Part shown: positions 13,730-17,671 of the stretch, piece after piece
How the letters are laid out: each line of letters opens with the position of its first letter
How positions within the stretch are numbered: position 1 is the stretch's first letter
Source of the DNA: Sphingobacteriales bacterium
Lineage (GTDB): Bacteria; Bacteroidota; Bacteroidia; Chitinophagales; CAIOSU01
Length of the DNA: 64,000 nt
Assembly (NCBI GenBank): GCA_027483645.1
Contig: JAIXUD010000022.1
Span: 186,001-250,000 of the forward strand
Direction of reading: 5' to 3'
The notes under the pieces: model-generated
Database searches by the model: none
Told to the model about the DNA's origin: nothing
What the model saw: the letters and a program-made list of their open reading frames with translations, nothing else
Program-made: the position numbers and the translations under genes

Positions 13730-14124
13730 AATTATCGGGTTTTGGATTTGATTAATGATAGAACAACCGCGCGCACCTCATTTTGTTTAGCTCAAGGGTA
13801 TTATTTTACAATTTAATAACACTTTCTACTATTGCGAATATCTAGAAATAGATAAAGTGAGTAGGTTACTTGCGCCGCGCTTAACTCCTGAAAGTAGGGT
13901 GTATATGGGCATCTAGCTATCCTTCAAATGGCGATATACCTTGCCAATGTGCTATTAATTGCATTTTGCAATCCATTGCCAATCAACGAATTAATCAATC
14001 AACCTATCAGCCCTGTAACCATATTCAACAAATATTTCGCGCAACCCCGTAACCTTTGCCTACGCATAGCCGTAGAAGATGAGTGTGAGATGATATGGAG
14101 TGTTAATCTATTAACATAGTGAGG
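13730..14124. other. 395-base divergent intergenic region
   Basis: This gap separates the fasciclin gene (-) from the sigma fragment gene (+) and must hold both promoters. I see no exact TTTG-N19-TANNTTTG pair on either strand. A tract AATCAACGAATTAATCAATCAACC (read here as two overlapping parts, 13980-14004) resembles the dispersed TTGATTGGTT repeats. No gene is supported. Confidence 0.5.
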
Positions 14125-14688
14125 ATGAGGATCGAGAAAAAAGAAAATGGCTTGCGTGAGCGCCGGTCGAAGACAGTACGTGCTTACCTAACAGAATATA
14201 CGGCCAAACATGCCGTGAGCGAACAGGATACCCTCGGCCTTGCTGAGGCTGCCCGAAACGGCGACCTGAACGCACTTAATACCTTGGTAAATGCCCACCT
14301 TAGTTTAGTAAAAACGGTGGCCCGCAAGTATCAAAATCAAGGTCTTTCTTTCCAAGAACTTTGTTATACCGGCAACATTGGCCTTATTAAGGCTGCCAAT
14401 CGGTACGATGAGAGCAAAGGCGTAAGTTTTCGCACCTATGCTATCTGGTGGATTCGCCAAACAGTTTCCAAAGCATTGCAAGAACACCTGCGCATTAGCG
14501 AAGTACGTGAGGTAAGCCTTACCGACCTGTGGGTGATACCCGAAAGTTTCAACTCTTGGGAGCAAATGGGCGAACTGGAGCCTTCTCGCAAGCAGATGCA
14601 TGCTTTCTTGGAAACAAAAGTATACGAAATAGCCAAGCTTAACCCAAAGGCCCACCCGGACCGCTTTGCTTGGTTGCCCCGCGCCTAG
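14125..14688 (+). CDS. Sigma-70 family protein truncated after region 2
   Basis: The 187-residue product has sigma region 1.2 and all of region 2 (about residues 38-130: AEAARNGDLNALNTLVNAH, VKTVARKYQNQGLSFQELC, GNIGLIKAANRYDESKG, TYAIWWIRQTVSKALQEH). It then leaves the family and ends in an unrelated 55-residue tail (SWEQMGELEPS to RFAWLPRA). Regions 3 and 4, needed for the upstream promoter box, are absent. Region 2 binds core RNA polymerase and the -7 box, so it could compete with or modulate full sigma factors, or be a decaying copy. The frame is intact and lies 147 bases before a complete sigma gene on the same strand. A GTG two codons earlier (14119) is an alternative start. Confidence 0.85.
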   Translation: MRIEKKENGLRERRSKTVRAYLTEYTAKHAVSEQDTLGLAEAARNGDLNALNTLVNAHLSLVKTVARKYQNQGLSFQELCYTGNIGLIKAANRYDESKGVSFRTYAIWWIRQTVSKALQEHLRISEVREVSLTDLWVIPESFNSWEQMGELEPSRKQMHAFLETKVYEIAKLNPKAHPDRFAWLPRA

Positions 14689-14835: not shown

Positions 14836-15696
14836 ATGAGGCAGTTGAAAATCAACCAACGATTCACCACACGTGATTCGTTAGCGCTCGAAAAATATTT
14901 TAAAGAAGTAAGCAAAGAGTCGGCCATTACCGCCGAAGAGGAAACCATGTTGGCCAAACGCATCCGCATGGGGGATATGCAAGCCCTGGATAGTTTGGTA
15001 CGGGCCAACCTGCGCTTTGTAATATCGGTTGCTAAGCAGTATGAAGGGTTCGGTATGAACTTGGAAGACCTGATAAGCGAAGGTAACATTGGCTTGATGA
15101 AAGCTGCGCGCCGCTTTGATGAGAGTAAAGGATACAAGTTTATTAGCTATGCAGTGTTCTGGATTCGCCAGTGCATACTGAAGTCGCTAAACGAGAATGC
15201 CCGGATTATAAGAATGCCGAGCAACCAGTTGGCGCAGATGCAGAAATTGCATAGCACCTTCAGCCGCCTGGAGCAAACGTTTGGCCGTGAGCCATCTGCC
15301 GAAGAATTAGCATTGGAGCTTGACCTTACGCCAGCAGAAGTGAATAAGGTATTGATGCAATCGCAATCGCCGCTGTCTATTGATAGGCCAATTGGCAGCA
15401 ATGAGGACGATGTAACCTTGCTAGAGCGCATTAAAAACGAGGCCGAAGCACCCGATGAGGAGTTGATGAAAGATTCGGTTTCGCAAGAGCTTACCCGCTG
15501 CTTGGATAGGTTGAATGTGCGGGAAGCGGAAGTAATACGGTTGCACTTTGGCCTTGATGGCCGGATGCCACTTAAGTTTGAAGAAATAGCCGATACTATG
15601 GGCTTGGGCAAGGAGCGTGTGCGCCAACTAAAGGTGCAAGGTATACGAAAGTTGCAAAAGCTTACACAGCGCAGCGGCCTCTTGAGTAAAATATAA
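14836..15696 (+). CDS. RpoD-like sigma factor, divergent paralogue
   Basis: A 286-residue group 1/2 sigma factor with no region 1.1, the usual length for Bacteroidota RpoD. It has region 1.2 (SLALEKYFKEVSKESAITAEEE), region 2 (NLRFVISVAKQYEGFG, GNIGLMKAARRFDESKG, SYAVFWIRQCILKSLNENAR), region 3 (about 145-205) and region 4 (LNVREAEVIRLHFGLDG, then MGLGKERVRQLKVQGIRKL). The start MRQLKI is identical to typical RpoD, but region 2.4 (FWIRQCILKSL) and the recognition helix of region 4 depart from the housekeeping version (LTRERVRQIKEKAIRRL). I infer an alternative sigma with shifted promoter preference. The hairpin array starts right after its stop. Confidence 0.9.
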   Translation: MRQLKINQRFTTRDSLALEKYFKEVSKESAITAEEETMLAKRIRMGDMQALDSLVRANLRFVISVAKQYEGFGMNLEDLISEGNIGLMKAARRFDESKGYKFISYAVFWIRQCILKSLNENARIIRMPSNQLAQMQKLHSTFSRLEQTFGREPSAEELALELDLTPAEVNKVLMQSQSPLSIDRPIGSNEDDVTLLERIKNEAEAPDEELMKDSVSQELTRCLDRLNVREAEVIRLHFGLDGRMPLKFEEIADTMGLGKERVRQLKVQGIRKLQKLTQRSGLLSKI

Positions 15697-15811
15697 TTTG
15701 GTGGATTGGTTATTAGTTGATTAGTTATTGGTTGATAGGTAAAAGTATTTTGTCCCAATAACTAATAACCAGTAACCAATAACCCTGGAGAATCATGGTT
15801 GGTTTTGAGAC

Positions 15812-15873
15812 CTAGAAGCAAAACGGGGGTTGCATAGCCTTTGTGCCACGATGGCGGCAACCCCTGCTTTTAG
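15812..15873 (+). ncRNA. Hairpin element A of the array
   Basis: Outer helix CTAGAAGCA with TGCTTTTAG (9 bp, one G-T pair); 5' bulge AAAC; inner helix GGGGTTGC with GCAACCCC; about 23-base apical loop. Preceded by the box GGTTGGTTTTGAGAC at 15797-15811. Its outer stem is longer than and different from those of B-E. Confidence 0.45.
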
Positions 15874-16024
15874 GATTGTTATTAGTTGATTGGTTATTGG
15901 TAAATAACAGTTAAACCAGAAGCAAACAGCACAACAAAAGAATAAGGTAAATTATAAAAACATAAGGGTACTAGTTAACCAATAACCAATTAACTAGTAC
16001 CAAAGATTGAGGTTGGTTTTGAGA

Positions 16025-16087
16025 CTTGAAAGTAATGGGCTGCTACTTGGCAGGCTAAAAAAACTGCGGTAGCGGCCCTCTTTTAAG
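16025..16087 (+). ncRNA. Hairpin element B of the array
   Basis: Outer helix CTTGAAAG with CTTTTAAG (one G-T pair); 5' bulge TAAT; inner helix GGGCTGCTAC with GTAGCGGCCC (one T-G pair); apical loop with a possible GCAG/CTGC mini-stem. The same box precedes it. Confidence 0.45.
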
Positions 16088-16247
16088 ATAGTTATTAGTT
16101 GATTGGTTATTGGTTGATTGGTAAATAACAGTTAAACCAAAAGCAAACAGCACAACAAAAGAACAAGGTAAATTTTAAAAACATAAGGGTACTAGTTAAC
16201 CAGTAACCAATTAACTAGTAACCAAAGATTGAGGTTGGTTTTTGAGA

Positions 16248-16307
16248 CTTGAAAGATATGGCTGCTGCCGACGGGGCGAAAGCTTGCTGCAGCAGCCCAC
16301 TTTCGAG
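16248..16307 (+). ncRNA. Hairpin element C of the array
   Basis: Outer helix CTTGAAAG with CTTTCGAG: relative to B the 3' strand changed twice but pairing is kept (G-C in place of G-T, T-G in place of T-A). 5' bulge ATAT; inner helix GGCTGCTGC with GCAGCAGCC; 20-base loop. Confidence 0.45.
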
Positions 16308-16432
16308 ATAGTTGATTGGTTAACTAGTTATTGGTTAATTGGTTGATTAAAAAAAGGACCATGAAAATATAGCAGTACTAGTTAACTAATAACCCATTAA
16401 CTAGTAACTAAAGATTGAGGTTGGTTTTGAGA

Positions 16433-16489
16433 CTTGAAGGAACAGGGGCTGCCGATGTAGACCCATTGCATTGCAGCCCCACCTTTAAG
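16433..16489 (+). ncRNA. Hairpin element D of the array
   Basis: Outer helix CTTGAAGG with CCTTTAAG, a compensated A-T to G-C change relative to B; 5' bulge AACA; inner helix GGGGCTGC with GCAGCCCC; 20-base loop. Confidence 0.45.
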
Positions 16490-16610
16490 ATGGTTAATTG
16501 GTTGACTAGTTATTGGTTGATTGGTTGACACAAAAACAAAAAAACATAACGTTACTAGTTAACCAATAACCAATTAACTAGTAACTAAAGATAGAGGTTG
16601 GTTTTTGAGA

Positions 16611-16668
16611 CTTGAAGGAGATAGGGCTGCCGTGTGATGGCTCCACCATACCGGCGGCCCCCTTTAAG
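16611..16668 (+). ncRNA. Hairpin element E of the array
   Basis: Outer helix CTTGAAGG with CCTTTAAG; 5' bulge AGATA; inner helix GGGCTGCCG with CGGCGGCCC (one T-G pair); loop with an ATGG/CCAT mini-stem. No 3' bulge. Confidence 0.45.
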
Positions 16669-16790
16669 GTTGGTTTATTGGTTTACTAGTTATTGATTGA
16701 TTTGTTAATACAAAAACAAAAAAGAACATAATGTTACTAGTTAACCAATAACCAGTCAACAAGTAACTAAAGATAGAGGTTGGTTTTGAG

Positions 16791-16826
16791 ACAGTACTAC
16801 AGGCTCCTTTTAGGGGCCTTTACTGT
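16791..16826 (+). ncRNA. Hairpin element F, last of the array
   Basis: Outer helix ACAGTA with TACTGT, unrelated in sequence to the other outer helices; 5' bulge CTAC; inner helix AGGCTCC with GGGGCCT (one T-G pair); 5-base loop. It is shorter, follows the same box directly and is followed by TTTT, so it may be the terminator of the array. Confidence 0.5.
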
Positions 16827-16888
16827 TTTGGGTTGGACTGAGATTGATCTGTCTACTTTTTTGCGGTCGGTTGTCTGTGGGCCGTTTT

Positions 16889-17671
16889 CTATTTATAGTT
16901 CCGCAAATCTTGGCTCCAATCGTATTCTTTGTATGCTATCTTATAGTCGGTGAAATCCTTTTGCAGGTATTTTTTGAGGATGTTCTTTATGCCGCGCTCA
17001 CCTCCGAAATCTCCTTTAAACCACTGCATAATCTTGGTTACGCGCACTATTTTTTTGGCGTCGTCTACCTCCGCATCCTGGGTTATGAAAGATATGGCGG
17101 CCGTTTCTAGTTGTTCCTCTAGGTTGTCGTAGTCGTAAAAGGCAATAGGCGGGCAGCTCTTCGCCCCACAGTTCAGGGCAAAATGTATTCGGTAGTCAAT
17201 AGTGGTTACAGCCAGTTTCTTTATGTGCGGTGCAGGCCAAAAGCTGGGCAGATAACCCATACTGAGTTTCCATCGGTATTTTCTCAGTATTCCGTGCTCC
17301 ACATCGTCAAGGCTTAGCTGCATGCTGCCTATGGTTATGGCTTTATCTGTAAATATGTCGGGTGTGGTTTTCTTTTCGCGGGTGGCTAGCAGTTGGTAGT
17401 AAGCATTGTAAATGTTTATCCAAAAAGCCTTGCGCGCGTTATCGTTGGTCAGTGCGTTTATCAATCCTTGCTTGGTCATGCCCGCCAGTACCGCTTCAAT
17501 ACTATCGGTAGTGGCCTCTGTTTTTACAGCATACAGCAGGTTACCTGAAAGGGCCACCAAATCTACTTCTGGTGGCATCGTATCATCTCGGTATGCGGGC
17601 ATAGCGCTTACTGTCCACACCAGTAGAAACAAGAATGTTATGCCGAGCAGCGCAATCAATGTTTTTCTCAA
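16889..17671 (-). CDS. DUF547 domain protein, membrane-anchored or secreted
   Basis: The 260-residue product has an N-terminal hydrophobic signal or anchor segment (residues 5-23) and a DUF547 domain with its marks: KAFWINIYNAYYQLL, LSLDDVEHGILRKYRW and IHFALNCGAKSCPPI, the last with the conserved Cys, His and Asn residues. DUF547 is widespread in bacteria and plants and of unknown activity; the conserved polar residues suggest an enzyme. It is transcribed towards the hairpin array and ends 63 bases from its last element, so that hairpin could also act on its transcript. Confidence 0.88.
   Translation of the reverse strand: MRKTLIALLGITFLFLLVWTVSAMPAYRDDTMPPEVDLVALSGNLLYAVKTEATTDSIEAVLAGMTKQGLINALTNDNARKAFWINIYNAYYQLLATREKKTTPDIFTDKAITIGSMQLSLDDVEHGILRKYRWKLSMGYLPSFWPAPHIKKLAVTTIDYRIHFALNCGAKSCPPIAFYDYDNLEEQLETAAISFITQDAEVDDAKKIVRVTKIMQWFKGDFGGERGIKNILKKYLQKDFTDYKIAYKEYDWSQDLRNYK

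Follow-up and report, generated by a model that had tools for sequence, protein, structure and literature searches.

A tandem array of box and hairpin units behind a sigma factor gene, a possible RNA sponge in a genus of the Chitinophagales

Directly behind the gene of an RpoD-type sigma factor, an uncultured bacterium of the order Chitinophagales carries six tandem units, each made of a common box and a two-helix hairpin. The stems keep their pairing through compensated changes, the strand of the sigma gene gives the more stable hairpins, and the arrangement is conserved behind the orthologous gene in related genomes. We propose, with a probability of roughly 40%, that the array forms a structured, non-coding 3' tail on the sigma transcript and would act as a multi-site sponge for a factor that binds the box.

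The sigma genes and the array

The window, i.e. the whole stretch of 64,000 nucleotides that was analysed, holds the six box and hairpin units at 15797-16830 on the + strand, the first of them 100 bases past the stop codon of the sigma gene (Table 1). Direct reading of the window confirmed the place and the arms that an earlier note, made from the sequence alone, had given for these units. The alternative sigma factor that it had placed before the array is borne out as a complete sigma-70 protein with regions 1.2, 2, 3 and 4. This protein has six matches in its own genome, including itself and the short upstream one, and its orthologues in the four congeners G001, G002, G003 and G004 are 86%, 87%, 88% and 90% identical, respectively. 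The sigma-like gene with region 2 only precedes the complete one in all five genomes. Its dN/dS of about 0.03-0.11, with synonymous changes prevailing (six pairs among G001-G004, the window copy left out), indicates that it is under selection.

Each unit begins with the box GGTTGGTTTTGAGAC, which is followed directly by an outer helix, a 5' bulge and a G+C-rich inner helix. The earlier note had listed both the box and the linkers as common to the units. The box does belong to the unit and is exact in four of the six, those at 16233 and 16596 having one extra T; the linkers are intergenic filler of the genome and lie outside the unit. A 19-nt piece of this filler is found at 78 places with at most 2 mismatches in the 4.27-Mb genome (7 in the array and 71 outside; reversed control 3), e.g. 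between two genes that we read by eye as groES and groEL, and the linker sequences in the congeners are largely different. Filler of the AGTTATTGGTTGATTGGTT kind is spread over the genome, often as facing inverted arms. The ORF list of the window has no frame of at least 80 aa between the units.

The last unit of the window was flagged as terminator-like by the scan, and in all four arrays the last unit has the same build, namely the box, ACAGTA, an inner GGCTCC stem with a short loop, the partner strands and a short T-run. Units 1-5 are without a U-tract, and by eye solely the final unit of each array has one. Behind the array the window has a gene for a DUF547 protein (16889-17671, - strand), and other DNA stands there in the congeners. 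The array thus stays with the sigma side.

Table 1. Positions of the sigma genes, the units and linkers of the array, and the second element
Feature	Position	Strand	Basis
Sigma-like gene with region 2 only, possible partner	14119..14688	+	domain match
Complete RpoD-type sigma factor gene, 286 aa	14836..15696	+	sigma-70 regions 1.2, 2, 3, 4
Filler, sigma stop codon to first box	15697..15796	.	direct reading
Unit 1: box, outer helix, 5' bulge, inner helix GGGGTTGC/GCAACCCC	15797..15874	+	fold z -5.3
Linker 1-2, intergenic filler, outside the unit	15875..16010	.	congener comparison, genome repeat count
Unit 2: box and two-helix hairpin	16011..16087	+	fold z -5.2
Linker 2-3, intergenic filler, outside the unit	16088..16232	.	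congener comparison, genome repeat count
Unit 3: box (one extra T) and two-helix hairpin	16233..16307	+	fold z -4.7
Linker 3-4, intergenic filler, outside the unit	16308..16418	.	congener comparison, genome repeat count
Unit 4: box and two-helix hairpin	16419..16489	+	fold z -6.5
Linker 4-5, intergenic filler, outside the unit	16490..16595	.	congener comparison, genome repeat count
Unit 5: box (one extra T) and two-helix hairpin	16596..16668	+	fold z -5.2
Linker 5-6, intergenic filler, outside the unit	16669..16777	.	congener comparison, genome repeat count
Last unit: box and terminator-like hairpin (outer ACAGTA/TACTGT, inner AGGCTCC/GGGGCCT, then TTTT)	16778..16830	+	terminator scan, fold z -3.6
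Conserved non-coding element of ~160 nt, box before hairpin at its 3' end	own genome, contig 9, 82507-82665		found in five of five genomes

Structure, covariation and strand

Each of the five long hairpins folds better than all of 200 shuffles (z -4.7 to -6.5), the hairpin of the last unit is matched by one shuffle in 200 (z -3.6), and chance is excluded as the source of the hairpins. Since the hairpins are palindromes, their opposite strands too give better folds than average, though to a smaller degree (z -1.7 to -3.6).

The covariation set was built from the 15 long units of four genomes, which give 12 distinct rows after identical ones are merged; the four terminator units were left out. 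MAFFT alignments of the units slid the 3' arms and were kept out of the pair counts. In a register set by hand on the structure, which makes the counts lean towards structure, standard pairs fill 176 of 179 cells (98.3%; 0 of 2000 shuffles reach that) and 9 of the 15 stem pairs show a double change between Watson-Crick types (reached by 9 of 2000 shuffles), figures that, with related and paralogous units as rows, are not probabilities. Extra pair types occur in an unremarkable number, which 348 of the 2000 shuffles reach. When the 3' arm is slid by 1-3 columns, pairing is 38-72% and the pairs with a double change number 0-2.

G-T pairs number 15 in the stems against 2 A-C, and the hairpin of the + strand, which is the sigma strand, is the more stable one in 18 of 19 units, as would suit an RNA transcribed in the same direction as the sigma gene. 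Selection on structure, as the earlier note had claimed, is thus supported by the compensated changes, the shuffle-tested folds and the strand asymmetry. The hairpins vary in loop and inner helix between units, so that the unit is not a fixed site throughout.

Distribution of the array

The exact box occurs in 4 of the 20 genomes searched, i.e. the own genome and three of its four congeners, and within the own genome the exact 15-nt box is confined to the array. An array stands behind the orthologous sigma gene in three of the four congeners (4 units in G002, 5 in G003 and 4 in G004), while the contig of G001 ends 39 bases past the sigma stop codon, inside filler. The numbers of units are 6, 4, 5 and 4 across the four genomes, two adjacent units of G003 being nearly identical. 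Over its 15 nt the box is exact in 13 of the 19 units, the rest having one T more (3), a final T (2) or the first two bases changed (1); such conservation is weak evidence since the five genomes are close relatives. That the number of units is free and the unit itself fixed is as expected of a multi-site binder. In G003 the first box lies ~20 bases past the sigma stop codon, which leaves hardly any space for a separate promoter.

Our model R1 found 5 matches in the own genome, all in the array (150 of 669 first-look candidates scored), and in the family it found units in 4 of 7 genomes, all of this genus (150 candidates scored per genome). Across the order, model R2 found the array in the same four of 396 genomes (12 candidates scored per genome). 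Eight non-genus genomes match R2 weakly, with E values from 1.7e-4 to 0.0087; TTGGTTT(T)GA is on neither strand at these eight loci, and four of them (L063, L064, L066 and L068) resemble plain terminators. L066 (~1501), which belongs to another genus, has one TTGTTTTTGAGAC ahead of a terminator-like hairpin, much like box and terminator. By eye the array is absent in the 2 kb behind the nearest sigma relative in G005 (51%). In a sample of 395 genomes from the phylum that lacks the four congeners, the 17-nt GAGG-box is found in the own genome alone, and on two IMG/VR contigs it lies inside coding frames.

Rfam 15 gave 0 matches at gathering score over the whole window, and all matches for 15600-16900 at E up to 5 are far below the gathering scores. 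Nothing of such form was found in the literature searched, and the samples searched gave no convincing relatives outside the genus for either the array or the second element described below. These results fit the view of the earlier note that no such family has been described.

A second locus with the same box

A search for the complement of the box led to a second, single-copy locus (own-genome contig 9, base 82610), which is present in all five genomes and which the earlier note had missed, as it had the origin of the linkers. The element there has 93% mean column identity over the five genomes, holds GAAGAACGAT twice and ends in a 13-nt box with a strong hairpin that by eye resembles a terminator; ~100 nearly invariant bases precede the box. 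It sits behind a 320-aa frame, for which no Pfam family was found above cut-off. The own-genome copy folds better than 200 of 200 shuffles (z -3.4). In the consensus fold the box pairs with an upstream AAACCAGCC strand, AAACC(A/G)GCC at the 5' end, in all five genomes, and nine pairs of this helix are kept in all five, one of them through a change from A-T to G-T. Per genome 2-4% of shuffles reach this duplex, five fractions that amount nearly to one reading given the close kinship.

Model R3 recovered the full element in 5 of the 396 genomes of the order, the five of the genus (7 candidates scored per genome). Another 17 genomes outside the genus match weakly; 7 loci were rescored and 4 alignments read, three of which cover essentially the hairpin, and the best one, L159, runs end to end but has neither the box nor the conserved 5' part. 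An Rfam search with the own-genome copy gave nothing near gathering score. We infer that the element is transcribed as a small RNA.

A possible sponge at the 3' end of the sigma transcript

In the reading that we prefer, RNA polymerase would continue past the end of the sigma gene, transcribe 3-5 box-hairpin units and stop at the terminator-like last unit; the short gap in G003 and the nature of the last unit point to co-transcription with the sigma gene. Next to each G/U-rich box (GGUUGGUUUUGAGA), one hairpin would serve as a stable scaffold of two helices. The tail would then present 4-6 near-identical binding sites and titrate a factor shared with the single box of the second element. This factor may be the second element itself, its 5' strand AAACCAGCC pairing with the box, or an RNA-binding protein, e.g. 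the RRM protein of the genome, which has one RRM_1 protein. A sponge explains best that the unit is fixed, that its number is free and that the box recurs once in the second element. Against this reading, in local folds of the arrays the box is not unusually accessible (mean unpaired 0.28-0.58 vs 0.39-0.44 for whole arrays), and the second-locus box is mostly paired (unpaired 0.18-0.33).

With distinctly less confidence we speculate that the two loci form a two-part circuit. The 3' sponge of a genus-specific sigma mRNA would open or sequester a conserved small RNA by displacing its internal helix between the box and AAACCAGCC, and the expression of the sigma factor would set the activity of that small RNA.

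Other explanations

The tail could instead be a precursor that is cut between the units, each piece consisting of the box as a seed and a protecting hairpin and base-pairing with target mRNAs, which we consider rather unlikely. Each unit does have a conserved 5' stretch and a stable hairpin, and a seed followed by a terminator hairpin has been reported for the FopS small RNAs of Bacteroides (PMC11697453). In G001, G002 and G003 the ATG of a ~210-aa frame is preceded, at a distance of two bases, by a 13-nt near-complement of the box, CCCAAAACCAACC, which forms 11 consecutive pairs with the box, at -17.4 kcal/mol in G002 and G003. However, the site is absent in the own genome, where the leader of the orthologous frame (71% identity) is unrelated and gives a duplex of -8.2 kcal/mol, and a counterpart of the frame was not found in the stretches of G004 that were fetched. 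Five of the six units lack the U-tract, and in three of the five genomes the box complement of the sigma leader does not surpass shuffled leaders in strength, both of which speak against small RNAs of this kind. The fractions of shuffled leaders reaching the leader-box duplex are 0.69, 0.62 and 0.37 for G001, G003 and G004, and weakly better in the own genome (G000, 0.10) and G002 (0.05). The leader pairing through ACC(C)CAACC, which is present in all five leaders and complementary to GGUUGG, was dropped on this test. The first codons of the sigma gene in the window contain AACCAAC, which is not conserved in the other genomes.

We searched the five genomes for a 13-nt complement of the box with at most 1 mismatch and found 140 places, of which 15 belong to arrays and 5 to the second locus, while the reversed control gave 85; composition may account for the surplus of the remaining 120 over these 85. 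The 30 places in the own genome were all inspected: 4 lie in the array, one is the second locus, one is in a coding frame and 24 are others. Among the 110 places of the congeners, about ten loci and 8 regions were inspected beyond the arrays and the second locus. In 31 of 40 regions (32 of the own genome and 8 of the congeners) a frame of at least 100 aa contains the best box match. A CTGAAAACCAACC site near the RRM gene was rejected, as it is part of a frame and its words recur in the congeners inside other frames.

The hairpins might also slow the decay of the sigma mRNA or buffer read-through, with the box as a site for the termination or decay machinery, and this too appears doubtful to us. 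It would account for the box preceding terminator-like hairpins at both loci and for the array keeping with the sigma gene while the DNA behind it differs between the window and the congeners, but a general 3'-end signal would be expected at many genes. With at most 2 mismatches in 15, the box has 22 matches in the own genome, i.e. 4 in the array, 1 at the second locus and 17 others, none of which has a unit-like hairpin directly behind it. At L125 (own-genome contig 17, ~35432) a GGTTGCTTTTGAGTC with 2 mismatches lies 43 bases behind a gene, with a terminator-like hairpin ~26 bases further; it is a loose relative of box and terminator, or chance.

The earlier note had inferred tandem small RNAs with the box as promoter or processing site, of which the RNA part is supported and the promoter part is not. 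The -7 element of Bacteroidota is TAnnTTTG. The box contains TGGTTTTG, which is near to it, and the sigma gene adjoins the array, as would suit a box read by the adjacent sigma factor with each hairpin starting a transcript. This is nevertheless quite improbable: what precedes the box varies from unit to unit and from species to species, no common partner element is seen upstream by eye, and by eye nothing common at a fixed distance is found upstream of GAGG before most boxes. Moreover, the box of the last unit stands directly before the terminator, that of the second locus lies at the 3' end of a conserved element, and a promoter directly before such terminator-like hairpins would serve nothing. 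The confinement of the exact box to the array in the own genome also speaks against it.

Least probable is a DNA-level recognition array or a mobile repeat (attC-like, REP-like or MITE), which tandem imperfect palindromes with bulges and a varying copy number might suggest, but there is one array per genome with the same gene before it in the four genomes where it is seen, the stems tolerate G-T over A-C on one strand, and the other-strand hairpins are less stable in nearly all units. The strand asymmetry likewise weakens the structured DNA recognition array that the earlier note had offered as an alternative. That note had also named copies scattered at random as a finding that would overturn its reading; the model matches lie in arrays alone (150 candidates scored per genome), all R1 matches of the own genome being in its array, and it is the linkers that form the dispersed part.

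Comparison with known systems

CsrB has GGA motifs in hairpin loops. The invariant motif here stands beside the hairpin and not as GGA in the loop; by eye no GGA is kept in the loops, which vary from unit to unit. No match to PF02599 (CsrA) was found in the own genome, which is 97.85% complete, with the control matched in 3 of 14 named genomes. If the array is a sponge, it would resemble the CsrB/RsmZ RNAs (e.g. PMC4005645) in its many hairpins and a repeated motif that titrates a factor; a CsrB reading is disfavoured.

The FopS and GibS small RNAs of Bacteroides and the protein RbpB offer another parallel, with the same phylum, a conserved stretch followed by a hairpin and multiple copies (PMC11697453). 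In that text FopS comprises 14 paralogous small RNAs with a terminator hairpin, and RbpB is an RRM_1-domain protein that binds them; our genome also has one RRM_1 protein. In contrast to FopS, five of the six units here are without a U-tract and the units stand in tandem behind one gene, and by eye on the four arrays a seed with an intrinsic terminator is not present in each copy. Intrinsic terminators are resembled by the last unit (scan) and the second-locus hairpin (by eye), and differ in that units 1-5 have no U-tract and a box precedes every stem.

Implications

To our knowledge, few RNA regulators are known in Bacteroidota. Should the sponge reading be true, the array would be a tandem RNA array with compensated stems whose motif is common to a second conserved element. 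A defined bait of 14 nt could serve to fish out the partner. The genus would then have a natural titration device of compact form, bound to a single sigma gene and with a copy number that varies between sister species.
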